Both the position numbers and the translations under genes were made by a program. 64,000 nucleotides of DNA, taken from Nephromyces sp. MM_2019. Taxonomy: Eukaryota > Apicomplexa > Aconoidasida > Nephromycida. Under the pieces are notes generated by a model that worked only from the letters and a program-made list of their open reading frames with translations, was not told the DNA's origin and did not search any database. The stretch's first letter is position 1. Each line of letters starts with the position of its first letter. Where the stretch lies: positions 63,607 to 127,606 of the forward strand of contig JADHZB010002086.1 in assembly GCA_015657535.1 (NCBI GenBank). Direction: 5' to 3'. Below, one piece after another: positions 4,298 to 64,000 of the stretch.

Positions 4298-5477
4298 GTT
4301 AAATTAGTCGCAAATCCATTTATAAAAGTTGCTTAGATAATCCTTTCGTGAGGTACAGCACAAGCTAGCATCAGTTATTCATATGTGGTCATTTGGTGTG
4401 ATATGGAAAATTTCACTAAGGTGCACAGAAAGCACATGGTACGCATCAACATGCATGCACTTCACTTTAGTTTGTAACCGAATGGGTGAATATAAGACGT
4501 GTACTTCCGTACTCATCAGTCACTAGCATCACAAAAATGTGCTCGAATGAAGCTCTGTAGCGATTACTAACTGGGTGATTTCACCTATTAAGCAACCGTG
4601 CGCTGGATTGCAGGAAGCGGGTTATCATAGTGCACAATACGAGCCATACCTGCAGCTGGTGACTGCATGAGCCTCCAGCGGTGCGGTTACCATCGTTGAT
4701 GCTCAAGTATTTTTCTCGGCTACCGCGCGTACTAGAGGATGAACAGCGGTGCGGGCGAGCACCTTCGTAACGGTATAGTGCGAACTACGTTGCTAACACT
4801 TATTGTCTAGAGGAGAATTCTAAACTCGGAGCAGCTGCGTACAGTATGTGAGAATCTACGCTGAGGCCAGCATATGCAAGAAACCCTTACTTCCGTCCGT
4901 ATGCAATTCTGATTACGTCGTTTCTGCTAGCTTACAAGGATTTGCAAATTAAGCGTTGCGCAATTAGCACGAGCTTGCTGGATACGCTTAGCCCCCTCAC
5001 CGTAATTTTTACTAGCTTAATCGTGCAAATATGGCGAAGCTTGTTTCGTGGATATAGGTTAATATATCTGCTGAAGTCAGTCACCGGGAGAAGCAGTTAC
5101 GCAACTCAGCTACTGCCTTTCCGGCCCGAAAAATTTAGCTCGCGGGGGAATGCTATCCCGGCACAGTGCTTTTGCAGGGAGAGTTTTATAATAAATATGC
5201 TTCGCTGCCTTTCTTTGGATGGGATCAGCTTGCCATTCTGATTTGTGCAGCGCTGAGAGCAGTGAACCTTGCGGTATGCAGTAATACCCTGAAGGCACGT
5301 GGTGCAGTCCATGTAGCCTTCGTGCATGTGCAGTCTTTCCCTTTGCTTATTGTTTTGCTGTCGTGAAAGGGGATTGCGCGTTCCTGGATACCACGGGGGC
5401 TCCAACTCTTTCTGATGCCATTGTGGAAGTACTCGATTTACTAAGAGGACCTACTGACTAATCTACGCGTGAATGAC
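4298..5477. other. Intergenic, nothing recognised
   Basis: Open stretches around 4942-5366 exist in more than one frame but have no ATG in a good position, no splice context and no recognisable protein pattern. This is the upstream region of the RING/TRAF gene and probably contains its promoter, though no core promoter motif is evident. Confidence 0.4.
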
Positions 5478-7527
5478 ATGAATGACATAGCAGTATTATT
5501 CGCCTCTCATAACAATTCCGAGTCTTCCGCATCCCCCACCACGCACTCTCGGTGGTATCCCATCTGCAGGCGCCATTTTCTGCAGGAGGTTCCTGAAGAC
5601 TTGCAGTGTCCCCTATGCTACGAAAATGCAGTGAATTGCCAGACTGTGTGTAAGCATCTTTTTTGCCGTGACTGCATTTCTTATCACATATCTTGCTCAT
5701 TGGGCAGTCGCCAGCGCGCGGCGTGTCCACTGTGCCGCCAGCCCTTGTGTTTCGCCACGATTGGGAATGTTGATGGAGAACTTTTGCGACGGGTCAGCGT
5801 CTCGCTTTTAACGAGCGTATTAGTATCAGCTCGTTCCTATTGTGATATCCTTTTTCGAGCTCATTGCTTCTTGTCTAAACTTTGCCATGGCTTTACACTG
5901 TTTGGGTTGGATCGGGTATAGCATCTCGTGCTTCGATCATTTATGAGTTCCTCGAGATAAACTCAGCGCTTGTTGGGTATGCATCAGTCCAATGTACGTG
6001 AAAGATTTTTCATGTATCAGGGAGTTTTTTTTTGTTTTACGTTGAGATATGCGTTTCATATTACAGCCGGCTTCCTTTAGGGAATATGATTTCATTTTCC
6101 ATAGAAGCATGGTAACTGTTTTGTAGAATTTACCGCGAAGCTTTAAAAAATTACAGTTGGGAAATTATGGGTCAAGAGTTGGGCATAATGATATTTCGGA
6201 ATCTTCCTTGGGAAATTTCTGGATTGATATATATATTTTCCCGTTACTACACAACAAATGCGATTGCAAGCATTTGATGCAACGGTGATTTTTGTTTGTT
6301 AGGTTGGGCAATTGATTGTTGCTTGTAAAGGTCAGTTTGATGGATGCACTATGAGTGGCCCTCTGTCAGAAGTTTTAAGTCATGAGAGGGAGTGTGGCTC
6401 TGTCGGAATCCCTTGCCAATATAGAAGGGAAGGATGCGGAGTTATACACCACAGAAGAAATGTAAGATTTCAAGGTTTTTAAGTATTTTCCTGACTGGAT
6501 GTGTAATGCTGAGCTTCATCTCTTATTTTTTTACTGTTGCTGTGTATTTTAATGCTGGTTTTTAAAGATATTATTGCCTCAAGAAATATATTTTTTTCTT
6601 GAAATTATGTGGTCATTAGAATTGGTTTTGACCTTTGCTTCATTTAGGCGTGCGCGCATGAATACAGATGCCGCTATAATCCTGGGGTTCGCGGTTGTAA
6701 GTATCAGATTTACGGCTGCAAAATTCGGGGAACTCATGAGCTTTTGAGCCTACATGAAGGACGCTGCGTAAAGCGCAACATGAATAATCACGTGTGCTGT
6801 CCGAATAAGCATGAAGGTTGTGGTTTATTATTGCGTAGACATGCTTTAAAAAAGCACTTAGAGACCTGCCCTTTCTCGAAGAATGCTAAGTCTGCGAAAA
6901 AAGGCAGATATACTATTGAGCTGGCATTGGCGTGGAAGGTTAACGATGCTAGCTGCAAAATATCGAAGGTAAGGCATCAAAAGGTCTTTGTAGAGATAAT
7001 GCTGTGTTACCCTTTTAAAGAATAAACGTGTAGATTTATTATGCTCTCTAAATGGCGATCTTTCTTTTTCAGCTATACTCGCTGTTATTCCCGCAACTTA
7101 ATTGGGTAAAAGTTTTACGTGTCCGTCTTTTTGTGAGCTAAGCGAAATTTTTTATGTATAATATTAGGTTGCAGTGTAATTTCAACGCTACAATATGCTA
7201 CTACTTTTCCGACAAAAATATATTTTAGGTGAAACGCCCCTTGTCAAAATTTCTTCCAAAGATTAAAGAAGTGAAGGAAGGCAGGATCATAGGCGAAATA
7301 ACTGTTGTCTTTGATAGGTATGCCATTCCTTGCTTCGTTAATTTTCATTTGTGATTGAAAAAAAGCTCCGATTTTCCTTTTTTAGGCTGCCGATATCGGC
7401 TTTGAAGGGTATTGTCCTTGCTTGTAATCCGTCGATTAGCGGGAATTTGAAGCAGTTAAACTTGATTTATAAAGGCGTTAACATTTTTGTAGAGCAAAAT
7501 TGCAGTCCAAGAGACAGTGAAGCATAA
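5478..7527 (+). CDS. RING finger and TRAF-type zinc-finger protein (probable E3 ubiquitin ligase)
   Basis: Five exons join in frame: 5478-5792, 6303-6461, 6648-6968, 7229-7317 and 7386-7527, giving 341 residues ending in TAA. The RING is C3HC4: C44, C47, C58, H60, C63, C66, C83, C86, with CPLC at both ends. From residue 106 to about 250 follow Cys/His pairs of the TRAF-type zinc-finger pattern (for example DGC..H..C and GC..HALKKH..TC). RING plus TRAF fingers is the layout of TRAF/SIAH-like E3 ligases, where the RING recruits an E2 and the fingers bind partners. The last 90 residues are not a recognisable MATH/TRAF domain, so substrate choice is unknown. The first donor (GTCAGC) is weak; the others are good. 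The start is the ATG after an in-frame GTG; no other ATG precedes the RING in this exon. Confidence 0.85.
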
Positions 7528-16400: not shown

Positions 16401-18888
16401 TGCGGGATAGCGTAGCGTTGGTGTTTCCCTCGAATAAATCAAATGGGAAAATGCCGCGTAGTTTTTTCGAAAAAGTGTGACTCGCCGCTAAAGAAGTACT
16501 AAGGGGCTGTTTTCCTTTGAACTTGTCGAAGATTAACAGAATATATTCGTTGAAAGCGCGTTAATATGATCTCTTCTTTTTGGCTTAAATTGCTATAAGC
16601 GCGCTTTTTGTCCCCCATAGCGCAGGCACCTGGCATAGTTACCAGCTGCTCCGCGCATACTGCCAAGGTAAAGGATCGCATCGTCTTCTTTTACCATTAA
16701 CTAAAGATATGCATGATTGTATAGATATTGGAAAGTAAAAATTATGAGTAGAAGGTTCATTTGAAGTACTAACAAGAACAGAAGCCTTAACTTCCCGCTG
16801 TTGCTTTTACGGAGATCTAAGTTGTGCAACTTGTATCGCATGTTAGATTGGCCGTTTTACTATGTATGCGAATTTCTTGCAAATTCCACTTGAGTGGTCA
16901 ATCCGTTTATTGTTGAGAAGGAAAACCCCTATGAATTTGGTGTAGTGCAGGAAAGGAACCGTTTTGCTACTTTTTGTTGTTACCGATGTTCCTTTCCTCT
17001 TTCATCACCCTCAGATCGTATTGTGGCATTCGATATTCTGAGGCTTCCAGTTACATAGTTATCCTTGCTTGGTTGCTTGATGGAAGAATGGGAATATGTT
17101 TAGTTTAGAGAATTTATTTTCCATTGGCATGTTTCATATTTTAACTTGCCTTGAACTGTGCTTGATTTGTGTCTGCTAGTAATATTAGCGTGTGCTTCGC
17201 TCAATCGTCCGTAATTCTAGCTACCTTTTGCGTTAATCAATGAGTGGTAACCACATTGATTTTGCTGCTTCTTGGGGCACTATAATTGAAAAAAAAGAGC
17301 GCTACATTCTAAAAATCTGAATTAGGCGAAAAATGAGTATTAAGGTACCATTTTTAATAGAAGTATAACTTGATTTTTAGGATTTAAAAATACTTTTGAA
17401 GAGCACATTTCACCGAGCATAACTTGTCTTTCAGAATGCCAAAGCTTTTTTGCCGCACTTGGGTGCGATAATCATCTTGGGTATAAATTTTTGTATTTAT
17501 TGAGGAGGATGATTTGGCGTTTCACTTTGACTTAAATAACTTTAGGTGAAAATAGTAAGAGTCTATTTAAGTAGTTGCTTTTTTCGTAGACTAACTGCTG
17601 AATCTTTTTCCAACCAGCGTCAAATTAGATGGAATGGCTTGGTAACTTGATTGCTATAGCTTAATCGCTATTGTCTACTGCAGTGTTATCTCATTCTCTA
17701 AATTCCATAGCAATATTTTAAGCTCGACGTCACTTTGTTTTTTTCTTTGGGTATGCACATAAATTTCAAATAGAGTGCTTTTCTGAGTAGAAAATAGCAT
17801 TGGTGGATTCATATTAATGGCTTGGGTATTACTTTTATGGGTTATGACGCTATGTCGTTTTATGATGAAACTGTTACGCTAGATTTATTTCAAACTTTTT
17901 CTGTCGTTTTACTAATTGCTTTGTTTGCTTTTATGCTTTCCTGTTCTATCTTTACCTTATTTACCGTGCTGCGAGGAGAATCAAACGCGTTGTATCGATT
18001 TAATCATTTAGTAACTTACTTCAAAGTTCTTGAACATTTTAAGAAGTTTTTCATGATTACTGTCTTCTGAGCTTTTTGCAATAACATATGCATCTTCGCT
18101 ATTTTATGCGCTCTTGTTTCTGGTTATAAGAACTATTTTGTAAGAGCGAATGATGCTATTTTTCAATTTAGGGCGGAGTAGTTCCAAAACCGATAGCTTA
18201 TCTTTAGGTATACTAGGCTAGCGAATATGAAACTGGACAGCTTCTTCCGCTTCTTGATTTTTTCTGAAGCTCTCAGCAGCCTTCTACAATTTCGTAGTAT
18301 GTTTGCAAATGTGTCCAAGAGACAATTTATCAGGTAATATACCATATATTCTATATCAAGGGGAGATGCTGCAGTTTTTCATACCCGATGTAAAGTAGTT
18401 GGCATGTCTTCACTATTAGGATTTTATTCTAACCATGAGCTTCATCGGTAATACTTTAACTTTAATTTTTTTTTCCTGGTTTTTTTGTTTTCTCACTTCT
18501 CACCAAAGAATGGCTGTCTAAGGCTCACCTTTCTTTGTGGTCATATTTCGAAATTTCCTTGTTCTTATCTAGGACCTCTAGCTTTATTGATGTTCACTTG
18601 TGATGCCTTGTCTGTGCTAGCAGCTCCGTCGCTGTTTTACTATTATTTTGGTGCGCGCTAATTTATACAATATGGAACTGTTCTTTTTGCACATTGAATA
18701 GGAGATTTTGCAGAAATTCTCTCTTTTTTCCTTGCTTCAACGCCAACAAATTGCAAACTTTTATGCTTAGAGGGGCCGATACTGATGGGATATGTACACT
18801 AGGCTTTTAATGAGTGTAAAATTCTGCAGCTACCAGATGAGCTACGAGCGCCGCTGAGTGCTGCTTGAAGATTTTTTGGTTTTAGAAC
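13436..18888. other. Long T-rich region, no gene assembled
   Basis: The + strand is conspicuously T-rich, like the introns of the flanking + strand genes. Possible isolated exons occur: 14684-14758 (acceptor atttccag, peptide FMEGAVFNTGFTIMKG, stop TGA), 15161-15415 (84-codon frame from ATG) and 17837-18070 (77-codon hydrophobic frame from ATG, with a donor-like GTAACT after position 18008). The last could be a 5' exon of the ceramide-synthase-like gene. None could be tied into a gene model. No repeat or RNA gene was recognised. Confidence 0.35.
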
Positions 18889-21857
18889 ATGTTTTTTCAA
18901 TTTTTTGCGCTATTTGCTTGCGATGATATTGTAGCTGCTTTTTCACTTGTGATGATAATTTTTTTGTACAGCTTGAGCTACCCCCGCTTGTTTGACCTCT
19001 GGTTTTGCTTACCTGTTGCCTTGGGGTTGACGATTATGCGCCTATTGTTGGTTCCCATCATTAAGCCTATAGCTGCGAAACTGATTACCGAGTACGTCTT
19101 CTTATATGGATTGGCTTGATATTTGAGTGCTTTAAATCGAGCAACTACACTGAATTTTATAGAGCTTTCTGGAATGGCCTTAATATCTACTCATGCAGCG
19201 TGTTTTTTCACACAGAAGCTTTCTTTTTGTCCACTTATTTATTGAATGGGCTGCCTTGAAAAGGTGAAGTAGGCGTGCCGACTAGGCTTTTAAATCCACT
19301 CCCCTCCCTTCTTTACATTCTCTCGTTGCTGTTATAACAGCTCGTTAGAGGGAAGATTTATGCATTGTGATTGACATGGGGGTCAACATGCTCGCTTAAC
19401 GCTGACTAAAGACTCATTGGCAACATGGAACTGCATTGTTTCATCGAAATATGTCTCCTCTTTTAAAAGAAGACATAACCTGTGTTGATCAATCGCAGCA
19501 AAGCTTTTTTATTCTCACAATAGTAATGATATATTCCCCTCTTCTACATCTTTTTCATCTTCTTTCCTGTCCATTTGTTAAAATTTGCCTTTTTTATTCT
19601 TTAAAGTTTGGTTTCCGCTGTTTTTACAAGCTGATCACTTTTAATTTACTAACAAACTGGTATTGACACTGTACCTGCAGGGTTGATTCTGATGAACGCC
19701 AATTTAAAATAGAGCGTTTTTCGGTGAATATTATCACTACCATTTACTTTTTGGGGACTACAATTTATGCGTATCACTTTTTGAAGGATGCTAACTGGTT
19801 CCCTGAAGAATTAGGAGGGTATGGTAAACCTCTTAACGTCTGGGATGGTATGTCTTTTGCAAAGTCAAAAAGTTTGCAGCCTCTGTAGAACAAAATTGTT
19901 TTATTGGACCAGTTTTTAAATCGAAATTTGCAAACAGATTGTTTATGTGCTTGCTCTGCTCAGTGTGTGCTATTCTTGTATATATATTGGAGGAAAAAAT
20001 TAGCTTATAGGCTGTGCCCCCCCATAAAATTCCTGCTACTCCGTATACTACGACCAGATTTTTCTGTATATTTATTTTATAATCTGGAAAGTATCACGGC
20101 AGTTTGTGAGACGATCTATTTCTAGCTGAGTTTTTGATTGAATTTCTACTCTTTGCCGTGCATGCTAAAACGTTGCTATTCATCTGTGTATACTGTTCTA
20201 CTTTCGGCTTATCGCCTTTTCAGGGTATCCCTTGCAGGCTAACGAGGAAGTGTTACGTTGGTACTTTTATATAAACGGAGGCTACCAGATTTGCAGCCTT
20301 ACGTTTCTGCTAACCGATGGATCAATGCCTCATTTTTGGGATATGCTCCTGCAGAATATTACTGCGATATTTCTCATCAGCTTCTCCTATATGGCCAATT
20401 TCCTGAGAATTGGCAGTATAATCATGTTTTGTCATGATTTCTGTGATATTTTCTCATTTGCGTAAGGCACTGCATTTAGCTTTTACTCAATTTTATATGT
20501 CTGTTTATTCTACAATATTTTTAAATCGTTTAATACGATTTCCCATATATTTTTTCGTGATCTGCTGTGAACATTTAATTGAGTGTGCTTTGAAGATCTA
20601 TATAGAGCAAAAGTTGCTATAATCGTGGAATTTTTTGGTAGCTCTTGACGCTTTCAGGACGAACATAGTAAATGGGATTAGAATCAGCGAGCAAGCTTTA
20701 TATATTTACCTCTTAGCAAGCATTGTCGCGTTGTGCTATTTTCTCATGTCACTTCCCATGCAATTGATGGTCTCTTTACGCAGTAACTGTGGCATCTTAA
20801 GTGCCCCCCACCAGTGCTGCTTAGTATCATGTGTGCTTCCTCTTGTAATTCGAGCTGCTGATTTTGTTTTATCTTCCAAATGTCTGCAGATGCAAGGCTT
20901 TCGCTGCCGCTCCTTACAAGCCATTGACAATCTCGCTATTCTTGTGTTTGGTGACTTCTTGGGGATACCTTCGCCTCTACTGTTTTGCCCGCCTTTGCCT
21001 CCATGCGTTTTTGATCGACGCATTTAGCATTGTTAATGCAGCTGAGTTGCATGGCTGGATTTGGTTTGCTTGTCTTCTCTTGACTCAACTGTTGATGAAC
21101 ATCTATTGGTATGAACATATGATGATATTTTAAAAAGCTTCTTTAGTTGGCAATGTTTGAATGGAAATTTTTTGCGTGATGATAGGGAGTTAAGGCTCTT
21201 TGTTGTCTCTTTTTTCCCCCATTTTGCGCTGATTGTTGAGTTTTGTTGTTGCGTTTTTTGAAGTTTGTATTTTTAAGCTTGTATGCACTATTTGCTTTCG
21301 CTGATCGGTTTTTTGTCGCTTGGACTCTTTGTATTTCGATGTTTTATATATAAATATCTGAGTTGCCTACCATTCACTAGTAAGTAAAATCCAGTATTTT
21401 AAAAGCAATGAGCTTTCGCTGATAGAGCTTCATTTTTTTACTAAGAAAGTGAGTTCTTCATGTCATTTTTATTTTTGCGACAAAATGAGCAAGCTGTGAC
21501 TCACCAATCAATATTACTTTGTGCTACGGTAATTTTTTTGTACCGTATTCTGCGGATGCCTTTTGTTTTTCTATCCTGAAGCATCGTCTGTCATCTCTTG
21601 TTCTAATTTCCTAGGGACTATTGGTATATTTCTTGTGAAATCCACCTTCTGAATCCTCCAGGATATATCTTTGCGGTTATATTCATATATGTTGCTTACT
21701 TTTCAGGTTTTTCCTTATGGTGAAGATGTTTTCCACTTATGTGGTCTACGGAAAACAAGTGGATATAGAGCATCAAGATGTTTTCGATTACAAAGTTGTA
21801 GAGGATAAGTCGCCTGTGATAAAGCAAACTACCTCTTCATCCCTTAAAGAGGACTAA
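18889..21857 (+). CDS. Lag1/TLC-domain protein, ceramide-synthase-like, catalytic His pair replaced
   Basis: Five exons (18889-19091, 19681-19847, 20224-20461, 20890-21108, 21707-21857) join perfectly in phase to 325 residues ending in TAA. The TLC architecture is clear: helices around LFDLWFCLPVALG, a conserved IERF..N..TTIYFL helix, the WYFYINGGYQICSL helix, the Lag1 motif region HFWDMLLQNITAIFLISFSY, then RIGSIIMFCHDFCDIF and a final helix QLLMNIYW/FFLMVKMF. Ceramide synthases join a fatty acyl-CoA to a sphingoid base in the ER membrane. The acidic C-terminal tail is expected. The HD of the later motif (H194-D195) is present, but the two adjacent histidines of the Lag1 motif are Q167-N168. 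The start is uncertain: the ATG at 18889 is used, but an acceptor (tttgtacag) at 18971 could connect to an upstream exon near 17837. Confidence 0.8.
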
Positions 21858-42703: not shown

Positions 42704-45700
42704 TCACTTCACGCTAACTAGGTTATCCAATCTTCCTGGTGAATCAGCGATAATTAAGGCTCTCTTTTTTTTCTTTGGCTTGTGTATATCTGTGGTATTC
42801 TCCAGCTTCCTTGCTTCGTACTTCTTTACGACTTTGTGCCTTTTTTCCACCCCGTGTAATTCAGTATTATAGCATGCAGCTATTGCCCGTGGAATTTGGG
42901 GTACTTTCTTGCCTAGAATATTGGTGCAGGTCCAACTTTGATGAAGTGCAGGGTTTTCTTCAGTAACCATATGCCTTTCGTAATAATTGATGCTGTTTCC
43001 GACATCGAATATATCGTTGCCTATAATAATGATATGCTTGTACACATTATCTACAGTACGTGTGTGATTCTTAATGTTCTGACTTATAAAGTTGCCTTGA
43101 TCGTTGTAGTAGCTTAGCCACCCATTATCGGCATAATTGAGAGGATGGCAATTCTCCCTATCCGCATCAGCTGCAGTGGTGGTAAAGTTCCGGCTAACCT
43201 CATCCACATCACTAAGAACCCTTGTACTGGAATAAACCTGATTCTCTTTAGTTATATTCCTATCGGTCGCCGAGGCATTATATGAAGCTCCCCCAAAACG
43301 CCCTCCTTGTCGATATTTTTTTTTAGTTTCTCTGTAACGCAGCTCAATTCCCTCAGCAGCTTCCAAGCCACAGCTACCGCCGATAAAGCCCTGAGAACCC
43401 TCTGTACTACCTTTATCAAACCCTCCGGAGGTATTTTTACATTTTCCTTTTTTCTTTATGTTACAAGAATCAGTCTCGCACTGCCCTGAAAGCTCGTTGG
43501 AGCTATCACAGTTCTGCTCATACATAGACGAGTGCACGTACATTCCAGACTGAGAGCAGTTACCTTGCTCCTCTTGTAGTCTACGGAAACCATCAAGCTC
43601 CTGTGCTATTTTCATAAGCTCAAAGTCCGCCTTACGAGCGAACTGGCTTATGATGCCATAATTGATTGACCAAAGAAATTTTGAGTAACCCAATGCCTCC
43701 AAAGATGCTACTAAGGAGGGATTAGGAGTACTGCTCTGCTGCATAGCCCATTGCTTTGCTGATGAAAATTCTGCACAGCGATGAGCAACTGCGAAACTGG
43801 CATCTTCATCTAAATTATTTGGCATAATGGCACCCATTCTCTCATCAGCCGCGTAACTGTTGCTACCGCTTTGAATTTCATGTGGAATAAAGGATTTTTC
43901 TGGTTTCTCACCACAAGAAAGCGAGCTCAATCCATTTGGAGGTGACATTCGCTGTCGCTTCTCCGATAAAGCACTGAGTTCACCGCTTGGTATCAAGTTT
44001 TTAGCCCTATTCTCGTCGAAGAGTGTAGCAAGCTCATTGTAAAATAGCCGCATTAAGGAATAGTCAACTGATGTAGAATCCAGATTTTGCGTCCTCGCGC
44101 TGCTTTTTTCGGGGTTCACACTCACTCCAGTGGTATCCATGTCGCTCGCTAGTTGTTCATTTTCAGCTAACTTATTTTTTTCTCGTAATCTTTCAGCCCT
44201 CTTATAGGTCTCTGAATAATGGGGCGGCAGTGTACCAATCTGGGGGATATGGTTCGGTATGGGCATGAAAATGGAGTTCACGGAGTTGAAAAGAGGCAGC
44301 TCGTCGCTGTCCTTAGTGAGCTTTAAAATCGCAGATATAGCATCATCCCACAAAAATCGGTAGAACAAGAGGTCAACAACACATTCTGCCGACAGAATTG
44401 TATTAAAATGCCAATAGTATGAGTCCATTTCAAGACTCCATTTAGGAACACAACGACAAAAACACTCGAAGACCAAAAGGAGGAGAGTCTGAAGCCTAGA
44501 GAAAGCAACGCTTGTGGTGCTACGCGATGATGCCGGCAAAAACAATGGGTCCTTTCCTTTTTCACCAACTGCGCTGCTGCAGTTAAAGTTCTGGATAGCA
44601 GTTGGACTGTATGACTCTATTAATTTTTCTCTACTCCCAAAGTTTTGTAGCATGGTGGAATCTGTAGCCAGCTCCTGGCATTGCGGAGGACTCGATTTAT
44701 GCGCAGAAAAAGTTTTGCACTGGGAAGTGACGTGACACGAAGCCTTCACGGTACCGGTATGTTCTTCATGCTGTAGTTTAGTTTCTTGAGTATCATCACC
44801 CGAGATATTTGAGGCCACTCTATTAATACCATATGATTCTGCGACATTTCTAAAAGACACACCCAAGTCACAGGCTGCGGCCTGTGAGCTGATATGGGGA
44901 AATTGTGTGGAGGAATGTAGCTCTTCAAAAGCGTCTGTGCTCCTGCTGCTGTCACCTCTTAATATCAAAGGCATCTTTTCAGATTGCCCCGCACCTGAAA
45001 GGGACGCATTGAATTGGACAGACTCCATCCCGATTCCAGGCCTTATCCCACGATCATTAAGATAGGCAACATTATCCGCATCTCGCATGGCAGGAGGACA
45101 GAACATAGATTTAACTTCGTCGTTACTTGCTGGAGAACCTTTTTTTGCTTCTAGGATTGGCACAACTAGCTGCCCCTTGCAAGCTGAATAAGTTGTAGGG
45201 GCCACTAACGCACTATTTTCTTGTGCAGAGCTGCCCGCTGCATCACACGGAGCGAATAACAGTACCGGAAAGGCAACTGGAAGGGATGATAGCTCCTCTT
45301 TTAGAAATTGTTCGCTGGAGTTCTTATTTCCATTCTCAATTATCGCACATCGTGTAGACTGCTCACTCTCATGTTTAAGAGCAGAATTTGGAGACACATA
45401 AACTACTAATGGCGTAGTTTTAAATATTTCAACGAAACTAAGCCCTCTTTTTGATCCTGCTTGTATTTGGTTTGCCCCATCGGCTCCCTCATGGCTGCTC
45501 TCTATCGCGGAAAAATTTTCATGGCTACCCTGTCTGGCCATTCTTTTGTCCATGCTTTTCCCAAGCTTAGATGAATCGCAAGCTGCTGGTTCCTTTGAAT
45601 CGACTGTCCATGTGTCACTGCCTGATGATGGATCGCGAGAGGGGCTCTTTTCAAGCTCCAAGTCCTCGTCATTTTTAAGACTTCGGAACTCATTGGAACT

Positions 45701-46036
45701 TCGAGGCTTTTCATCGTGGTTGCTTCGTTTCCCTAGCGCGCTTACGGGTATGTCTTTAGTATTCTGAGATGATGGCGTATCATGTCTTCCGCTACTATTA
45801 TGTTCGCCCCCTGAGGTCGATCCGCCAGTCAAATTAGGAACTGATGACATATGGAGCCTATCACTGAATATGTGAAATTCTTCAGGATTCATCAGTAAGA
45901 TTGGAGTGGGCTTGATAGCATCCGCGAGATATCCAGCACTCGGGGGACATGCAGCCACTCCAATCTTGTCTATTTTGATACTTCTATCTATGTTTGTTAC
46001 ATAGTCTACAAACCGCTGCAATGTATGCACATTCAT
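42704..46036 (-). CDS. Unknown 1110-residue protein, Ser/Asn-rich, possible nuclear signal
   Basis: A single open frame of 3.3 kb runs from ATG at 46036 to the stop at 42704, by far the longest uninterrupted frame in the window. Most of the protein is polar and low in complexity (S, N, E, K, T, H), as in disordered regions. A more ordered island lies at about residues 510-640 (peptides LLLLVFECFCRCVPKW, YYWHFNTILSAECVVDLLFY and YSETYKRAERLREKNK). Near the C-terminus is a basic run, KPKKKKR, that could be a nuclear localisation signal. N-terminal residues CPPSAGYLADAIKP and ILLMNPEEF look structured. The frame is open upstream of the ATG: a 37-base intron at 46072-46108 (AG/GTAATC..tttatag) would join it in phase to an exon ending at 46109. 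I do not recognise the family. Confidence 0.7.
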   Translation of the reverse strand: MNVHTLQRFVDYVTNIDRSIKIDKIGVAACPPSAGYLADAIKPTPILLMNPEEFHIFSDRLHMSSVPNLTGGSTSGGEHNSSGRHDTPSSQNTKDIPVSALGKRSNHDEKPRSSNEFRSLKNDEDLELEKSPSRDPSSGSDTWTVDSKEPAACDSSKLGKSMDKRMARQGSHENFSAIESSHEGADGANQIQAGSKRGLSFVEIFKTTPLVVYVSPNSALKHESEQSTRCAIIENGNKNSSEQFLKEELSSLPVAFPVLLFAPCDAAGSSAQENSALVAPTTYSACKGQLVVPILEAKKGSPASNDEVKSMFCPPAMRDADNVAYLNDRGIRPGIGMESVQFNASLSGAGQSEKMPLILRGDSSRSTDAFEELHSSTQFPHISSQAAACDLGVSFRNVAESYGINRVASNISGDDTQETKLQHEEHTGTVKASCHVTSQCKTFSAHKSSPPQCQELATDSTMLQNFGSREKLIESYSPTAIQNFNCSSAVGEKGKDPLFLPASSRSTTSVAFSRLQTLLLLVFECFCRCVPKWSLEMDSYYWHFNTILSAECVVDLLFYRFLWDDAISAILKLTKDSDELPLFNSVNSIFMPIPNHIPQIGTLPPHYSETYKRAERLREKNKLAENEQLASDMDTTGVSVNPEKSSARTQNLDSTSVDYSLMRLFYNELATLFDENRAKNLIPSGELSALSEKRQRMSPPNGLSSLSCGEKPEKSFIPHEIQSGSNSYAADERMGAIMPNNLDEDASFAVAHRCAEFSSAKQWAMQQSSTPNPSLVASLEALGYSKFLWSINYGIISQFARKADFELMKIAQELDGFRRLQEEQGNCSQSGMYVHSSMYEQNCDSSNELSGQCETDSCNIKKKGKCKNTSGGFDKGSTEGSQGFIGGSCGLEAAEGIELRYRETKKKYRQGGRFGGASYNASATDRNITKENQVYSSTRVLSDVDEVSRNFTTTAADADRENCHPLNYADNGWLSYYNDQGNFISQNIKNHTRTVDNVYKHIIIIGNDIFDVGNSINYYERHMVTEENPALHQSWTCTNILGKKVPQIPRAIAACYNTELHGVEKRHKVVKKYEARKLENTTDIHKPKKKKRALIIADSPGRLDNLVSVK

Positions 46037-47124: not shown

Positions 47125-48812
47125 CCCCCAATTAGATGCGTCTTACGCAGGTTTTACCGGGTACAAAAATTAGACAGTAGCTCGTATCTCAAAAAAATAT
47201 ATTAGGGCTCCTTGTCAAGGTTACGCACCAGAGGTCAAGGAAAAAAAACCAGATTACCCAGATGAATTCAAGCCTACACCAGGAACGGACAAGCCATGTA
47301 CTGCGTACCCCTTGATAATCGCATAGGGTTAAAGTACTTTTATCGCCCGCTGTTTCTCATATTAGCATAGCTATAGGTAAGATATGAAGGATTCTTTCAA
47401 TCGAACAAGTGCAATGTAACTTTATCCACAATAGCGAAATGATTGCTTTTTGGCGGTTGCTTAATATTGTAAAGTTGGGGTACAGAACTTGCTACTAACG
47501 TCAAAAGAATAGGATTCGTGGGCATAGAAAAACTGGGTATCATGTATCAGCGCCAAGGCCGGAAAAGTTTTTCGAGTAGCAAATCGCCAGGGTTAAAAGA
47601 GCCTCTTACCTGTGCTACGGACTAAATTCTGGGACTAAGCAGCTGAGACGATCGAATATGCCCTGGGCAATTATAATTGGAACCTTTATGTAAGTAGTGC
47701 TACTGCATTCCATCGTAAAATGGTAATTATAATGCGCATTTTCACCGCAGAGCAGTGGTAGAGTTATTGCACCTCTTTCCTGCAGTGATCGCACATTGCT
47801 TTGGTGTTTTTGCTTCCCGAAAAAACTCTCGCAAATCCGTTTTTACTCTCTTTATTACTTTGTGTTTGTCACTGCCTTCGGTAGACAAGTAGCGTTTATC
47901 GTGATGAACGCTACGAACGTCATTTCCTCCCCTCCAGATTCTCCAAAGAGGGGCGAGAGCTCACATGATATGCCATGCTGCCTTACAAAGTTGTACTAAC
48001 TACTAGAACATTTGAGCTACCTGGTCTATTTCACTCTGCAAGACGCACATTGTGAGTAAACATGGATTTGTTCCAATTTTCGTATCAAATAATCCATGCA
48101 TGAAAGGGTGGCGTCATGCTAATTTTTGGATTATTAATGTGTCTAGCGGCATGAATTAACAATGCAGGAAGCCTTCATCGCATGTTTTACTCGTTAGAAA
48201 AGCTACCAAAGCATGTTTAGGCTACCGGAGCTACCCCATATTTACTAAACAAAATTTTTCCATTTGCAACTAGCCCTAGTAGTAAAGAGAAGTCAAATAG
48301 TGAAGTTTTACGGTATATCATCAGAGATGGAAAGTCTGGAAATCGAGATGAGATACGGAAATACAAACAGTACTTGCATAAAAATATTGATTTTATATTC
48401 AGTTTTATGAAGTAGATGGTGACTACTAGGAAATAAGGACACTAAAGGTTTAAGATAGCTTGTAGTTTGGCTTCTTTTCAATATAAGATACTTAAAAGCA
48501 TACTCATCCTCTAAGCAAACATGTAGTTTGCCATCATACACAGCGATAACAAGTTACCCTACGCTTGAAAGCCATTTAAAAAGTTTCATGTAGGAGCATT
48601 CGGTGTAGAAAAATATGTTTCCATGTAAAGTGTATAATGAAGCAAGAAAAATAAGAAAATATAGCGCACGCTCAAAGCTCGGGGTATTCATATTCTAGGA
48701 AATAGCCTGGAGCTAACGAGCTAGTCGGTGCATGTGTTTCATTTGCTCAGAATTATTAGCCAGCTTGGCGGATACCTTCCACAACAAATCGCAATAAGCA
48801 TTTATTGAATAG

Positions 48813-49112
48813 CTACAAAACTTCGAAGGACGTCAAAAATTCGCGGTGTCAAAATTTTTTTTGTTGGATTGCGGTAAATATCATCAATCAATACAAATTT
48901 GCTTCGACAATCTTTCATACTCTGCCACAGTTGTAGTATGGGAGTACCGAATTGAGTTATGGGAGTTTGAAAATTATAAGTCTAACAGAATGTTTCAGCA
49001 GAGTTCGAGCAAGTTTTTACCAAATACTTTTTCAATAGGTGAAGCCTTGGTTACATTGAAAAAACCAATGGAAAGGCAATTTTATCGCTTCCTCCATGAA
49101 TACACGATTTAA
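48813..49112 (+). CDS. Possible exon, unassigned
   Basis: An open frame of about 100 codons follows an acceptor-like site (attgaatag) at 48812 and ends with TAA at 49110-49112. There is no in-frame ATG before the coding-looking part. The peptide starts KFFLLDCGKYHQSIQICF and later has FSIGEALVTLKKPMER, which loosely recalls the N-terminal phosphate loop and the IGEA..PMER region of actin-related proteins. That comparison is weak: an actin-related protein would need a donor before the TAA and I see none. It is on the opposite strand to its neighbours. Confidence 0.2.
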   Translation, partial: LQNFEGRQKFAVSKFFLLDCGKYHQSIQICFDNLSYSATVVVWEYRIELWEFENYKSNRMFQQSSSKFLPNTFSIGEALVTLKKPMERQFYRFLHEYTI

Positions 49113-49822
49113 TAATGGGAGGAACTAGCACAACCATGGGGGGTACGTATGGGTCGCTTGCATAGTTAGTCGTGTCGCATCTACGTACATTGCTATCATT
49201 TATAGCTTAGACTCCGGTGCTCAGACCAGAAGACAGCATCAGCAAAAGTATTTTGTATTTTTTGGAGGAAATTTTTTTTACATATTAATTATGCAAAGAT
49301 TACCCTAGAGCAGGCTGTCCTTTTGTTAGTGATCTGTACTGGTGCGATTCATTTAGACGGGCTGTTGCAGTCTTGGACAATAAAAAGTAAAATACCCTGT
49401 TGCTATTGATTTGATCACTACTTTTCTTTAAAGGAGAATATGAATTAGCTTATCAGGGGCTAGATTGTATGTATCAACTTCTTAAAGCAAGACACAAGAA
49501 TATTCTAACTCATTGATACTATGCAATATATATCCACCAGTGGAAAAAATTTGCGGCTTATTCAGCACGAAGCATGACTAGATGATGAACAGGTGTAACA
49601 AGAAGGCATACTGATTGTTAACACCTTAAAATTTTTTTTAAATTTTGCGGTTTTTCTATGCTTTAAGTCTATGGTTATAGTACTATGCGCACAAGAGTGC
49701 ATATGCCGCCCTTTCCCGCAGGCCTTTTTTGGACAGTAAAACTTTTTCTGTTTCATTCGTTAACAGACAATAAAAATTCTCCGATTAAGAAGGCATTTTT
49801 CGCCAAACTTTTCCCGGTAAAG

Positions 49823-49978
49823 TAATGCGGAGGGACTGCACGCAGCCAGCAATAGTATTAGTCGTAGAACCAGCTACAAATTTGAGAGCTACGGAAGTTT
49901 ACGGATTACTGGCTAACACTAGAAAGGATGCATCATCAGTCGTCAAGGCACTAAAAGCAGCGTTTGAATTTGACTATA
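49823..49978 (+). CDS. Possible short exon or ORF, unassigned
   Basis: A frame with ATG at 49825 (acceptor-like cggtaaag just before) reads PAIVLVVEPATNLRATEVYG and a helical KDASSVVKALKAAFEF, then meets a donor-like A/GTAAAT at 49979; read through, it ends 47 bases later in T-rich sequence. It might pair with the exon at 48813, but the phases do not prove it. Function unknown. Confidence 0.2.
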
Positions 49979-52598
49979 GTAAATACTCTGAATTTTTACT
50001 GCTTTTCGTGGTTTTTTTCTTTTGAAAGTACTTGCTTCTCAGAGGAAGCTCCAGTAGGTTGCTACAAATTTTTAAATTGAAAAAAATTTCTTTACGCAAC
50101 TCGATTTAGCTACCTCGTGAAGTACTAATTCATGAAAGTTAAAATTCTAAGCCGATGTTTCAAGACTTGAAAAACTCGGAATAACTCTTTTTGCCTAGTA
50201 TATAACGGTTTGCCAGAGGTATTATGTAACGTTGGCTTCTTCTTTGAAAATATACTTAATGTTTTTCCTTAATATTGAGTGTCCTAAGGTATATTAATGG
50301 TAGCTTCTCAATTCTAAATCTCTCACAATACCGTTTTGATGCGATCATCTATATTAGAGGGTATATAAAACGGATTTTAGGATTTTACTTTTGGTTTTTT
50401 TTTTAAGCGAAATTTTTGCACTAAGTAAAAAATCGTGTTTCATATCTTCCAAAAAAAGTAGCTTGGATAAAAATTTCTTGAGCTTGCTTTGCCGAAGTTT
50501 GTTCCATTCGTTCGCATTATATAAACCTTAAAAGAAATATCAAGCGAATCTTTCACGACCCATAATGGTACCAGTTTTTTTACATATCTTTATCGCATGA
50601 TTTTTTATGAAATTCTCAAGTATTTCCATGTCTTTTTTTTCGGTATTTTATTAATATTACTACTTTCGATATCATATTGATGCATCCTACAATTTGTTTG
50701 ATATTTTATGGAAAACTGCATGGTTTTTCATTGCTATTATTTGTGTAAGGAGCACTGGATTTAGGAATTTTATAGTATTCTTTCGGTGGAAAAATTCTCA
50801 AAAACACCAGAGTCATCAAGTCACATTGTGTTGGACTCCAATAAGAGAATTTGCATGATCATGTTTTGAAATCACTATTCTTGATGCTATGATATTCCTT
50901 GAGTAATAAATCGGATAAAAGAAAAAACCAACTATAGCGCAGGAACCTAATTTGGATGGCTTGCCATGGAAAAAACCAATTTTAGTAGTAAATGAAATAT
51001 TTTAAACTACATATGCCGATTTAAAAAAGTATTTTGGTAAATGAAAAGCTCCTGTTCCACCCAATATGCAAAATTTCATCAGCTCCATTTTCTAAAAAAC
51101 ATCATTTTCCTTATAAAAAAATCATTCCATCATCATATTATTATCAGGACAAAAAATATGGAGGCAAAAGTGCGTTTCAAAATTATTATGTTTTTATATT
51201 CAAAATCATTTTGCGATTACGCTTTAAAAGTATATTAAAAAACTAAAGGTTTTAAATCTTTGAAAAAATAAAAAAGATTTATCTTCAAATTACATTTTTC
51301 TCCTTTAATATATTAAAATATCATTATTAATTTATACAAAATAATTTTAAATGTCTTTTATTTCCTACACTGGGGCGATACTTAATTGAGTATTTCTTAT
51401 TTTTGAGATATCCCTGGTCCCAGTTATAAGCTGATTGATTCTAATACCATGAGACATTAAACACGATGAAACAGTCAAATGCCCTATTTTTTTTAAAAAT
51501 AAATGCATTTTAAAAATTTTGTATTCGCTTAGATTATTCAATTTATTCCTTTTCCCAAAGGCGAGCATGGTAAAACGTTAATGATTTGTTTTTTTAATCT
51601 TTGCGTAAATAGGAAATAAAAACAGTAAGAATTCTCCAAAAGGCAGTAAATACGATTATTTTATGATATTTGAAAGAATAATTTTAGTACTGATGCCACC
51701 GAGTTAATTATTTCAGGGGAAATTATAATTCCAACTAAAGATCATATAAATTTGAAAAAATTTCAAATGGAAAACGTATTTACTCATAAGTATTTGGGAT
51801 TCTTTTAGATGCTAAACAGTCAAAAGGATTTTTTTTTGCGAAGAAACAAACTTTTTCACTTTAACTCAGCCCAAAATGCATCAAATAGAAAATTTTCAAT
51901 GATTCAATTGAGTCCAGTTCAGTGAATCGAAAAATCTCAATTTTCCGAAGGTCAATTTTCCAAAAATTGCAAATGCAAGCATTTAACTTTTATAAAGGCA
52001 AAAATTTAACGAGACACACCGATAAACAGGATATAAACAAAAATGCACTCCCTCCGTCTTAATATTGCCTGATATACAAGCGAAACCAATGGCAGCTTCA
52101 TTAACTATTGTGATGAAAGGACTGCTAGTTTAATTTAGAGACAGTATTTTAGACGATTCATTTAAAAACTCAAGTTTATATATCCAAAAAAACGGCCAAT
52201 TTTAAATTTCCAAACTATAAAAGCTGCTTATTGGCATAAGCTTTAGGATTAGATTGAATTTTATTTCATAAACAGTTTCTTTAAACCAGCCAAAAAACTT
52301 GGCAGCAGTTGGACATAAAATGATATCAGGAAGATATATTTTAAACAAGAGAAGCATTTGTAAAACATCAAATATGGCAAAAGCCAGAAGAAGCCCAATT
52401 TATGCAAATAAATTGAAGAAAAAAAGCTGATTCTTTCTTTCTTCTTGAGCAGCTATTTTCATACAAAATAAAAGTAAAAAGAAAATTATTATAAAGCTTT
52501 GAATGAATATTTAAGATGAAATTTTATCCTGAAATTTAAACCTGAAAGGTCTCAAAAATAAAAAAAAATAAAAAAAATACAATAAACTTAGAAGCGAA

Positions 52599-52725
52599 GA
52601 AATTCTACACTTTTTACTCAAAATCTTTGGTGATTTATAATATCTAACGCTAGCTGCTGTAGCAGAGAAATTCTACACTTTATACTCCAAATCATCGGTG
52701 AGTTATATCTACTAGCTGCTTCAGC
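52599..52725. repeat. Imperfect tandem duplication covering the phosphodiesterase stop codon
   Basis: Two copies, about 52599-52664 and 52667-52725, share gaaattctacacttt, then a similar middle, then gctagctgct/actagctgct. The right copy contains the last 11 codons and stop of the phosphodiesterase; the left copy lies in the 3' untranslated side. Confidence 0.7.
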
Positions 52726-55022
52726 ATTTCAAAAAGTACGTCAGAGCTGGCTTCAGGGTCATTTGAAATTTCTTCGAAAGCTTCAGCGTAAATCTAAAAA
52801 AAAACCGTAATCGAAGCTGCTGTGTGTGTGCGACTTTTTTTGCACGAATAGGAGAGCCTAGCCGATTGCAGCAAAATCTTGCAAAATGAAAAATCTTCAA
52901 AAGATCAGATTAAAGAAATTGCTTGAGCAAAAAAAAAAGTAGTCTACAATCGTTTAGCTAACCTAATAAAAAGATGCCTCTTTAAACAAGAAAATTTGCT
53001 ATAAAAAATTGATAAGCTACCAATCACAATTCATAGATATTTTGCTCAAATATTTCCTAAAAGGCACAGCCTATTAAGCAAAAAACTCCCAGCTGCCATG
53101 AAAAATTTATATACTAATAAAAAGCAAGCTTTTGAGCATGAATTTCAGTTAAAAAGTAGAAAAAATCCAAAAAAATTTGTTCATCACTTTTTTTAAGTTT
53201 TTTTTTCAAAAAAAGCTGTTTTCATCAAATTTAAACATTAGTGTTGCTAGTAAAGAATGATTATTAGCTGAAAGATGCATTCTATAATATATGTTAAGAA
53301 AAAAATCCCACACACTTCCCTGCACACACGCTCCCTTAAAAATCTTTTTTATACCTAATTTTTCAAAGAGGAAATACAAATCTTGAAGAATTAATGAAAT
53401 TATCAAATAAAATTTGAAAAAAAACCCAAAAGCAGCTTCTTACCTCCCAAATTCTTTTGTTTTCAAGAAGTTGTCCAATACAAGTTTTCCTTACAAATAA
53501 ACTTTGAGAGTTTCCATTGGAATTTAAGGGAGTTTTCAGTACATCATAATGATTCATTTGATACTCTTCATCAAAGAATTTTGTAAAATTATCCCTGCCT
53601 TGCATAGCATATATTCCATCATCATATGTGTATGCAGCAGCGCTATTATTAGAAGTTATCCCCTGAGCAGCACCGTCAAAAAAAGAAGCTACTGCCTCAT
53701 CCATATTGCGTGAAGCAACAGAGGGGCCTAAAATGCTCTGATTGGTGCGACTGTGACTGTTTGCTGCGTTTTGCTCTGTTTCTTCGTCGTTTACTGCAAA
53801 GTGTACTGCCTTTCGCTCTAATTTTAAAGAGTTTTGCTCGCCTATATACACATTAAAAAAAGATATTAAGAAAATGATAAAAATAGAGTTTTAGAGGAGT
53901 TTAATTAGAGAAAATTTCAGGAAAAGTAATGCTGCCCAAAACCTAACAGGGAAAATTAAGAGTAAGGTTTCTGCATTATCTCTCAAGAACTTTTTGCCTA
54001 AAAAAATCAATTCTTTTCTAGTAAAATATCAAAGCGTCAAACTTATGCAGTGCATTCTGCAAGAGCAGGTATGTGTACAGTATTTTTTGTTTATAAAAGA
54101 AAATTTCACTATTAGAAAAAACGATTTGCAACATCTAAATCGGAATTGAGGGAGTTTGAAAACACATAGATAAGAGGTTGTGTGTGTGCGTAATTCAAAA
54201 AATTACTAAAAATAGCAATAAAAATAAATTGCAAAAATTCAAGCCGCTAGTTTTTTAAAGGAAATTTTGGTTATAAAAAAACAAAATATTGGTGTCTTTA
54301 GGGATAGTCAAAAAAGCAGTGTACATGCTGCAAAGCACTGAAGCTCTCCTTCCAAATGGAGAGTTGGCAGCTGGAAATCTAAAAATAGATTTAGTGAAAA
54401 CTCCAGTATGTGTGTGCACTGATTTTATAATTTTTTTCAGATCTTTAAAATATAAAAAACACAAAAATATCACTGGAAAAACTCGTTAAAAGTATTTGAA
54501 ACTTCAGCAAGAGAAATAAATGAGGGAAAATCGCGCACACAAGAATACAGTAAACTGAAATACACGCACACACATAAACACACTTAAATAAAATTCCATG
54601 AGGATTTCGTATTACGTAAAATGTTTGGAGCTCCTTTAACGGCATTAACAACAGAAAACCCTGAAAAAGGAGCTCCAATAAATAACTCAGCTTTGTTCTC
54701 TAAAGCTTTGATTCCTTTCGAGTTTTCAGCTTCTATCGTTGATGAGGAAATCACAGGATTCTCCGGCAAGCTTTTAGGTGAGTTTTTTGAAGAATTCGTA
54801 TTCTCTAGAGAATGACCCATTGAAAATGAGTTTTGGGAAGAAAATGGTGTAAAATCTGAAACTGGAGGAGGAGTAATTACCAAAGTGCTGCACTTGAGTG
54901 AGTTCATGGGCTCAAGCTCATTATTAAAAAACTCTTCTACTCCAGCAAGCTCTTCGTATAAATCAAGGCAGACAAACTATAAAAAAAAGGAAAAAGGAAA
55001 AAAATAGGTGGGAATTGTATAC

Positions 55023-55083
<61 letters not shown>

Positions 55084-55143
55084 TGTGTTTGTGTTTGTGT
55101 GTGTGTGTGTGTTTGTGTTTGTGCTTGTGTGTGAGTGTGTGTT

Positions 55144-55182
<39 letters not shown>

Positions 55183-58100
55183 TATATATACATATATATA
55201 GACAGAGGGTCATATAAATGTATATCTTAGTTTAAGCAATCTCTTTAGATATATCTTCACTAAATAAGTCAAAAATAGAGAAAAAGGCCTTTAAAAAACA
55301 AAATCCTCAAAGATGCATAAAACTCCTTGAAGCAACTTCTCCACGTAAAAACTCATTTATGCCTTCGGATTTAATTTTCTTCTAAAAAGCATTCATTAAG
55401 CTTTAATTAATTTATCAATTTAATGCATTAAAAAGCTAAAAAAGTTTCTCAAAAAATTGAAAATTCTTCTTTTTTTCCTTGTTAAAAAATACCAAAAAAT
55501 TGCCTCCAAAAAAATGAAAAATCCTTCATTTGAAAATCTTTTCTTTTGCGAAAAATTACCTGTAAAAATCCCACTTGGGATTTTGGTATTTCTTGCAGCC
55601 TCAAACGATCACATAACGGAGAAACGCTTAAAGACATAAGTTTTTCTTCATCGCCTTGAGCAAAAAATTCTTCAAGGCATTTAAGTGACCAATAATAATG
55701 CAAAGACCAATTTTTTGCAGAGTGGCCAATATCAGCAGCTTTAACACACATTTTTAATGTAATCCATCTGTCTTCTGCTTTTTCACTGAAATTGGAAAAA
55801 TCCATAATTTTAAGCAAAAAAATACGAATTTTTAAAGGAAATTTCTTGAAGATATGAAAATATTTCACAAATGATGAAATTTCCTTAAATTTAATTTCTT
55901 TTTTTAAAGTTTTAAATACTAAAAACATCAAATAAATGCAAAGTAAACAATTTCAAACAAAAGCTAAAAATTTCAAAAACATCTTCAGTAAATTAGAAAA
56001 AAAAAAGATAGTTTAATCTTTAACTCACGCTTTGTATTTTCAATAATTTTTTTTTGAATATTAGATTATTTTCAATTGAAGATAAAAAGTTCAAAAAGGG
56101 GTTAGTGTATTAATAGACTGAGAACTTTAACAAGACTTTATCTTGGTGCAAAAATCCCCATAAAAAGAAACCTCATAAAAAAAGGCTCACAAAAAACCCT
56201 AATCTCTCTCATTCAAAAATACTACCAACTTATCAGTTGAAGATGTGATTTTTCAAAATTAAAAAAGCTGAAATTCGCACTTAAAAAACATTCACAATAG
56301 TTATTAGAAAGTAGTATTCCCTTTTATCTGCAATCAACAGGCTTATTAAAAAAATAACAGCGTAAAATAAATGATAAAATGTGCTTTTTAAACAGAAAAT
56401 TGATCAGCTTGTTATATAAAGAAGTTGATAAAAAATAAATCAAAAAAGCCTTCCAAGATTTACCATAGCGAAAACTCTGGGCTTTGCCTTCTTACTTTAA
56501 ACTTTGCAATTGACTCAAAGTGTTTGGACATATCCGTATCGAGTATGATATCAATAATGTATTGCCTGTAAAAGATTCGTAGAAAAATCGGCATGTGTGT
56601 AAAAAAAATTGCTTATTTTCTCAGTTTATAATTTTTTATTTCATCGCTTCAATTATAAATTTTTTTTTAGTAAAAAAAAGCTTCAAAAAAAGTATTTTGC
56701 AAGCTTCAAGTAAATTAAAAAAACTCTACTTTCAATGTGAAGTTTCACGTGCTATTTTACATAATTTTATACTTTAAGAAAAGTGTAGAGAAAAAATATT
56801 TTATCATGTTTTACCCGTTAATTTTAGTAAAAAAAAATTGAATTTCTTGAAAAATTCAATAAAAAATTAAACTCAACACAAAGAATTAGCAATTTAGCCC
56901 AAAATTCTACTGATTTTGTATATTTTGTTTTTTCTACAGATAAAAGGCTGAACCAACGTATTGATTAACTCTCATATATGATGTTAATAAGAATTATTTT
57001 TATAAAAAAACGCTTTAAATGGCTTTTTAAAGTTCCTCAAAATGCAATGCTAGCCACTATAAATCTGCATATTTTCCTGCTAAAAGTCCTCCAAATTTTA
57101 TAGTTTTATGTGCCTTAATAAAATGCTTATTTTATTAGGTTTTTGTTTAATTTGAAAATTTTTAATTTCGTCTATTATTTTCATTAAAATTTAAAAAAGC
57201 ACGATTTTGCAACTAAAAAAAAACTTTTAAATCTTTAAAAATATCATGCTAACTTACCGTAATTTAAAAAAATCTTCCCTTGGTAGGAACTGAGCAAAAT
57301 TGCACTTTGGATTGCTTAACGTCTGAAATGTAACGGCAGCGTGATACTGCTCTAGTACAGATTGATCATTGTATCTTATAGCCAACTGATTGCTGCTAGA
57401 AATCTGAAAAAAAGTGGAAATTTTATCGAATTTTTGTTTCTTAAAAAGCCGTATAATCACTGAAAAAAGAGCAGCATAAAGTCCATAATTTAAAAAAAAA
57501 AAATCAAAAAGTTCAAAAAATTCATTTTTATAGAAAATATTAAAAGAAAAAAAATCTGTGCATAAACCTAATGCTTAATAGTAGCAGAAGATCTTTTAAA
57601 ACGCTCAAAATAAAAATTTGTGATACCAAAAAGTTTAAATAAAATTTAATGCAATTAATTTGAGGAATTAAATAATTTAACAATTAATAGGAAAAAAAAG
57701 ATTTTTTACCAAAAAGTTGTTGCTTCTGGCAGGGTGTGCGACGTCATGGCAAAGTGTGGCAACTATTAAGCCAACTTGCTGAACCGATGAAAGCTTATCA
57801 AACAAATATAATTTGTTTAAAAGAACAATCGTAGAATGACAAACGTCGGCTCCTAAGTATGTAAAAAAAATTTGGAGAGTGTGGGTGTGAGGTTTTTTTC
57901 ATGCTTTAAGGTGTTTGAAAAAATGAAATAGGGAAAATTCTGTTATTGTAATTTTTTAGCAATTTGGTTATATTCAATAAAACCTGATTGAGGAATAAGA
58001 TGGCACAAAGAAGAAAAAGCAATAAGAGAAAAAGAAGAAAAGCAAAATCACAAAAAAACACACGGGCAAAAAGAAAATTCACTCTGTTTATGAGCTTTTC

Positions 58101-59888: not shown

Positions 59889-59919
<31 letters not shown>

Positions 59920-63303: not shown

Positions 63304-64000
63304 CTGTAAAGAAGATTTCAACAATATTTTTGGTGTGTGCGACATACATTTTGAATAGTTTTGTGCGTTTGCTTTTAGGGGGTTTATTTAAATTGCGCCT
63401 ATGCCACGGTGTAAAAGAGTATTAATTCACCAGAATGTTTCCAGCAAAAATTTTTTTTTCAAATAAATCAGCAGCAAAACTATTGCAAAATTTATGAGTA
63501 ATGCTCATTATCTTTCTATAAATAAAAAATGCCTTTTTTAAAGAAGAGAAGCACAAATAAAGCAAAAATTTGATGCTTTTAAAGTTTAATATACTTTGCA
63601 TTAGTTTACACAAAATCGTAAAAAAAAAAAATTGCCTGAAATCTTAAAGACTATATTATTCATCTTTTAAAACAACTGAGCTGCTTGCAAACTCAATATT
63701 TGCAAGCATTCCTGACTAAAAAAAATAGTAATTCAAGTAAGCTATACCCTCAAAAAGATATGATAGTGTGCAGTAAATAAATAATAAATACCCTTACCAA
63801 TTTAAATCTCAACAAAAGCAAAAACTTCACCAAAAAAACTTGCAAAATTTGGGTTTTTTAAATCTCAAAAAACCTCAAATTAACCGCTAAAAAGAATAAA
63901 AAATCGCATTCTACAGAATCTTTGTTGAAACATTTATATTTTCTGCAGGAAAACCATCATTTGCACAATATATATATATATATATGTTAAAATATCCATA
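63304..64000. other. Upstream part of the phosphodiesterase gene, exons unresolved
   Basis: The exon at 63303 begins in phase 2, so earlier exons must exist. A possible one lies on the - strand from about 63717 to 63675 (acceptor after a T run, peptide QECLQILSLQAA, donor GTTGTT in matching phase), but it is short and unproven. The rest is A/T runs, including a TA repeat near 63968-63986. Confidence 0.35.

Follow-up and report, generated by a model that had tools for sequence, protein, structure and literature searches.

The gene at the locus

The window, by which is meant the whole 64 kb stretch of DNA analysed here, carries on its forward strand an intact gene of six exons (18227-21857) encoding a protein of 333 amino acids; its introns follow the GT..AG rule and its reading frame is free of internal stop codons (Table 1). 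The protein matches the TLC domain (PF03798, TRAM_LAG1_CLN8) at E 1.9e-26 and 93.7 bits against a cut-off of 24.6, values obtained on a gene model lacking exon 1. Exon 1 was recognised because a related gene on another contig of the same assembly (C301), together with several public homologues, begins with MKL. Where active ceramide synthases carry two adjacent histidines, the codons CAG AAT specify Gln-Asn, and a HMMER alignment (E 7.8e-13) places these two residues on H211 and H212 of human CerS6.

Table 1. Exons and selected residues of the window gene (exon-intron boundaries marked by a slash)
Feature	Positions	Strand	Evidence
Exon 1 (MKLD...)	18227..18333	+	Donor TCAG/GTAATA; length 107, equal to C301 exon 1
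Exon 2	18972..19091	+	Acceptor TACAG/CTTGAG, donor CCGA/GTACGT; tblastn 45% to C301 exon
Exon 3	19681..19847	+	Acceptor CTGCAG/GGTTGA, donor GATG/GTATGT; tblastn 45% to C301 exon
Exon 4, Lag1 motif of TLC domain	20224..20461	+	Acceptor TTTCAG/GGTATC, donor TTTGC/GTAAGG; PF03798 above cut-off; tblastn 59% to C301 exon
Met at CerS6 Arg202 position, nine residues N-terminal of the pair	20325..20327	+	
Q175 N176 (CAG AAT) replacing the His-His pair	20352..20357	+	Codons; CerS6 alignment
HDFCD, retained equivalents of CerS6 His238, Asp239 and Asp242	20433..20447	+	
Exon 5, with Ala at CerS6 Tyr253 position and retained Arg275 equivalent (YLRL)	20890..21108	+	Acceptor CTGCAG/ATGCAA, donor ATTG/GTATGA; tblastn 46% to C301 exon
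Exon 6, end of TLC domain and C-terminal tail, terminal stop codon	21707..21857	+	Acceptor TTTCAG/GTTTTT

An earlier note on this DNA had reported Gln-Asn at these codons, and the codons do read as it said; the interval that it singled out coincides exactly with exon 4 of the six-exon model. The residues stand but their numbers, given there as Q167 and N168, do not, apparently because exon 1 was missing from the earlier model, and the same offset of 8 also fits the HD that was placed further along. Its argument that a single read error does not explain the pair gains support as well, since QN is also found in Cardiosporidium cionae, a separate species with a separate assembly. Read error is accordingly judged unlikely: the Cardiosporidium protein (P0001) reads LLQN, the C301 protein reads LLGN, and the first His is absent from all nine public homologues of this type (P0001-P0009). 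An alternative exon structure that would supply the His pair is ruled out, as the frame of exon 4 aligns to CerS6 across the pair without a gap and the exon pattern of C301 is the same.

The neighbouring frames were scanned against Pfam for 10 frames of the window, a part of those listed. A RING finger frame lies at 5445-5918 (+; PF00097 above cut-off), and near it a frame at 6648-7022 (+) has matches to TRAF/Sina-type zinc fingers below cut-off; the two are possibly parts of an E3 ligase gene. An unbroken frame of 1110 amino acids at 42704-46036 (-) matched no Pfam family at E of 0.01 or better.

Public relatives and the CerS2 clade

Pseudo ceramide synthases of Apicomplexa have been described by Koutsogiannis et al. 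(2023; PMC10946778), whose TgCerS2 has substitutions of the Arg, the His-His pair and the Tyr. According to the same paper, TgCerS2 orthologues occur across many Apicomplexa with PC, QH or LI at the pair, LI being that of Cryptosporidium muris. A first homology search with the window protein returned five matches, namely Cardiosporidium cionae (58% identity), a EukProt protein (P0002, GHVT; 46%), Cystoisospora (37%), Besnoitia (36%) and Toxoplasma (36%), and the four named organisms are all apicomplexan. The nearest named relative is the Cardiosporidium protein, with 58% identity over 78% of the query, and Nephromyces is the sister genus of Cardiosporidium (PMC6320678). The two proteins share QN at the pair and Met at the Arg202 position; they differ in the block after the Lag1 motif, where Cardiosporidium retains VDT and the window copy has AAA. 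The public gene model for the Cardiosporidium protein seemingly misses the equivalent of exon 2, probably an annotation gap.

A profile search returned 10 matches, the first five together with Cyclospora, Eimeria mitis, P0006, P0007 and P0010. The tenth and weakest of these, P0010 (E 5.6e-4), has an HH pair and was placed in the outgroup. The CerS2-type set thus comprised 11 sequences (the window protein, C301 and P0001-P0009), the Eimeria row (P0009) being poorly aligned upstream of the Lag1 motif. Within the set the pair is QN in the window protein and Cardiosporidium, GN in C301, QH in P0002 and PC in the seven rows P0003-P0009.

A tree was built from 15 rows, with C362 (a gene of the same assembly, described below), P0010, Ciona and Cryptococcus as outgroup. 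The 11 CerS2-type rows are separated from these four His-His rows with support of 100/100, in a tree whose outgroup branches are long and whose rows include none from Plasmodium or Cryptosporidium and no proven CerS1 from Apicomplexa. The window gene groups with TgCerS2, apart from the His-His ceramide synthases. It is joined with C301 and Cardiosporidium (97/98), and within this group of three C301 and Cardiosporidium are paired with the window copy outside (96/91). The alternative topology with C301 and the window gene as sisters cannot be rejected (p-AU 0.085), and they may thus be one gene in two lineages. The branch of the window copy is the longest of the three (0.78 versus 0.56 and 0.32).

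In the window protein the His-His pair of catalytic ceramide synthases (Lag1p / CerS) is replaced by Q175 N176, and the Lag1 motif has lost its canonical Arg and Tyr, as elsewhere in the CerS2 clade, while the aspartates equivalent to CerS6 Asp239 and Asp242 of the catalytic enzymes are present. Every CerS2 member sampled in PMC10946778 has Leu for the Arg and Asp for the Tyr. The window protein has Met and Ala instead. Met with Asp is found in P0001 and P0002, Lys with Asp in C301, and the published Leu-Asp combination in the seven rows P0003-P0009. The Leu and Asp letters are taken here as a description of the published sample and not as a definition of the clade.

Related genes on other contigs

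The assembly searched comprises 48.3 Mb in 1127 contigs. PF03798 gave six matches on five contigs, these being the window's own contig, C301, C362, C981 and C868, the last two being known solely from TLC-matching frames. Over 316 positions the C301 protein and the window protein share 47% identity. The exons of C301 measure 107, 123, 170, 238, 218 and 101 bases, against 107, 120, 167, 238, 219 and 151 in the window gene. The introns differ in length about five to tenfold, at 56-117 bases in C301 and 376-638 in the window gene, as if the genomes were differently built. The two coding sequences differ by dN 0.51 and dS 2.03 (LWL85), the latter saturated; NG86 yielded no dS. A tblastn comparison (E no higher than 1e-5, frames of at least 30 amino acids) of the 64 kb window with 40 kb out of the 74.7 kb of contig C301 matched only four exons of the window gene, with no sign of a shared neighbourhood that would suggest segmental duplication.

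C362 holds a gene with a four-exon model, a TLC domain match and a Lag1 motif that includes RR..HH and the Tyr. Its protein is 16% identical to the window protein and falls outside the CerS2 clade in the tree. Under the same tblastn settings, nothing in 30 of the 31.8 kb of C362 matched the window, the ceramide synthase itself included. A homology search with the C362 protein found, among 4108 candidates, only proteins of Ciona and Cryptococcus and none from Apicomplexa, and C362 is therefore not tied to that phylum. Queried against the assembly, the window protein matched only its own gene and C301, and the C362 protein, with two candidates scored, matched only C362, in searches of limited sensitivity. 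Even DNA_pol_B and S3Ae, which every eukaryote should have, were missed in the assembly search, so absence from this genome search is weak evidence. Neither 5S rRNA nor an exact 20-base 18S rRNA pattern was matched in the assembly. C362 is one gene with a normal HH pair, and the assembly may hold others.

DNA from more than one lineage is very probably present in the assembly, given three apicoplast-like contigs and a second copy of ribosomal protein L3 that is partial and different. The three contigs (C1112, C1009 and C318) have RNA polymerase matches, with in-frame TGA and a GC content near the match of about 13-17%, and are mutually 70-73% alike over some 8 kb; apparently they represent three apicoplast genomes, to judge from these traits. 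The expectation that an active paralogue would lie elsewhere in the genome was therefore borne out only in part: a ceramide-synthase-like gene with an HH pair is present, but C362 may belong to another lineage and cannot be called the window organism's own paralogue. The window gene, C301 and C362 may come from different cells. Within the window, GC content is 0.34-0.42 over positions 1-48000 and 0.27-0.33 over 48001-64000, and a run of 210 N at about 60064-60273 is flanked by two stretches of a 19-base tandem repeat. With its drop in GC and its N run between repeats, the contig is possibly a join between sequences from two lineages.

Residues retained and lost

In the CerS2-type set CerS6 H211 is replaced in 11 of 11 rows and H212 in 10, and Arg202 and Tyr253 are each lost from all 11. 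His238, Asp239, Asp242, Lys249 and Arg275 are retained throughout. Five His-His reference rows (C362, P0010, Ciona, Cryptococcus and CerS6) have 21 positions invariant among them. Eleven of these (P170, L218, S222, Y223, G231, D239, D242, F264, R275, L308 and W318) are kept in every CerS2-type row and five (Y182, R202, H211, L245 and A326) are lost from every one. The remaining five are mixed, being kept in 10 of the 11 rows for D204 (His in the window copy), three for E134, two for P157 and one each for H212 and L314.

In CerS6, His211 carries the acyl chain, and a His212Ala substitution abolishes activity (PMC11919693). A side pocket formed by Tyr142, Tyr189, His212, Asp239, Asp242 and Arg275 probably accommodates the base's amino alcohol (PMC11919693). 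Read through the alignment, the residues of acyl transfer are gone from the CerS2-type rows and the charged residues of the putative base pocket remain. This pocket is incomplete, with Tyr189 replaced by Gln or His in all 11 rows, Tyr142 by Phe in 10 of 11 and His212 by Asn in the window copy; Asp239, Asp242 and Arg275 also occur in the outgroup rows, so that their retention may partly reflect the fold.

The window copy is unusual within the clade in other respects too. It alone has Ala at the Tyr253 position, where the ten other CerS2-type rows have Asp. Positions otherwise invariant in the clade are changed at 12 of 70 in the window copy (the VDT block among them), 6 of 64 in C301, 2 of 63 in Cardiosporidium, 5 of 63 in P0002 and none of 58 in either Toxoplasma or P0006, a count that excludes the Eimeria row and in which rows with many close neighbours in the set score low by construction. 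With so many changes the window copy may be losing constraint.

Interpretation and proposed role

The window gene, from a nephromycid near Cardiosporidium, very probably belongs to the CerS2 (pseudo ceramide synthase) clade of Apicomplexa and is non-catalytic. Lacking an acyl-carrying His, its protein should not make ceramide, and the window copy is predicted to be inactive in ceramide synthesis. Loss of the His pair is an already published feature of this clade (PMC10946778), which the earlier note did not mention. The class having been described there, the window gene adds a further case to it and is not a new kind. It extends this still unexplained class to the tunicate-associated nephromycids and adds QN and GN to the PC, QH and LI known before.

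Loss of H211 together with retention of Asp239, Asp242 and Arg275 in all 11 rows favours a non-catalytic, lipid-binding role for the clade; the letters that replace the catalytic pair are not fixed, and the combination points to binding and away from a new enzyme. Ceramide binding has been put forward as a hypothesis for TgCerS2 by its authors (PMC10946778). For the window protein such a role is plausible but tentative. Most likely it would sit in the ER membrane, where others have located TgCerS2, with the charged residues on the sphingoid-base side of its active site preserved. There it would hold ceramide or a sphingoid base without catalysis and might act as a buffer, sensor or carrier. 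A more ambitious proposal, which is doubtful at present, is that the whole clade is a sphingoid-base or ceramide receptor derived from ceramide synthase, in which the acyl-transfer half has been left to vary (QN, GN, QH, PC) and the charges of the base half (Asp239, Asp242, Arg275) have stayed fixed. The window copy, with Ala for Asp and an altered VDT block, may then represent a second, re-specialised version.

A pseudo-synthase might also serve as a regulatory subunit, pairing with and tuning an active ceramide synthase, as CerS dimers may, rather than binding lipid alone. CerS6 is dimeric in its structure (PMC11919693), apparent TgCerS2 homodimers have been seen (PMC10946778) and an HH gene is present in the assembly; yet no dimers were predicted, species of Eimeria other than E. 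falciformis have CerS2 without CerS1 (both PMC10946778), and C362, as noted, may come from elsewhere. A regulatory partnership is therefore considered unlikely. Still less probable is that the window gene is a redundant paralogue in the course of being lost, with C301 as the maintained copy. The longest branch of the three, the larger share of changed clade-invariant positions (12/70 versus 6/64) and the pairing of C301 with Cardiosporidium, which leaves the window copy outside (96/91), speak for decay, but the frame is open, the splice sites are intact, and Asp239, Asp242 and Arg275 are retained. Moreover the sister relationship of the two copies is not rejected, and an assembly with three apicoplast-like contigs about 70% alike may hold one gene from each of two lineages.

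The earlier note had offered a non-catalytic paralogue or a different chemistry. The non-catalytic half is supported by membership of the CerS2 clade and the inactivity of TgCerS2 (PMC10946778); for the other half nothing was found. That the altered site would catalyse some other acyl transfer or hydrolysis is highly improbable, even with HD..D and Arg275 kept in 11 of 11 rows, an intact frame and a dN below dS against C301 (0.51 and 2.03, weak given the saturated dS). The pair is variable within the clade, from QN, GN, QH and PC to LI in Cryptosporidium muris (PMC10946778), and is thus unlike a conserved new nucleophile; TgCerS2, for its part, showed no activity with the acyl-CoA substrates it was offered (PMC10946778). 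A lipid-binding, non-catalytic protein remains the preferred reading.

Comparison with TgCerS2 and human CerS6

An open-access literature search found no paper on ceramide synthase in Nephromyces and none on an apicomplexan ceramide synthase pseudoenzyme; a search for TgCerS2 returned PMC10946778 only, the main text of which names neither Nephromyces nor Cardiosporidium. In that paper TgCerS2 was inactive in vitro, in proteoliposomes, with either of two acyl-CoA substrates tried. It resides in the ER, and its importance to parasite fitness exceeds that of the active TgCerS1 (PMC10946778).

The window protein resembles human CerS6 (PDB 8qz6) in being alignable to it over query residues 46-265 and in sharing His238, Asp239, Asp242 and Arg275. 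It differs in having none of His211/His212, Arg202 and Tyr253, all of which CerS6 possesses. The likeness to TgCerS2 is closer. Both are TLC proteins of the same clade that begin with MKLD (the latter as P0004), with 36% identity between them, and both have lost the His pair, Arg202 and Tyr253 and kept HD..D and Arg275. They differ in the letters that stand in place of the lost residues, PC in TgCerS2 and QN in the window protein at the pair, Leu and Met at the Arg position, and Asp and Ala at the Tyr position, and, unlike TgCerS2, the window copy belongs to the nephromycid branch.
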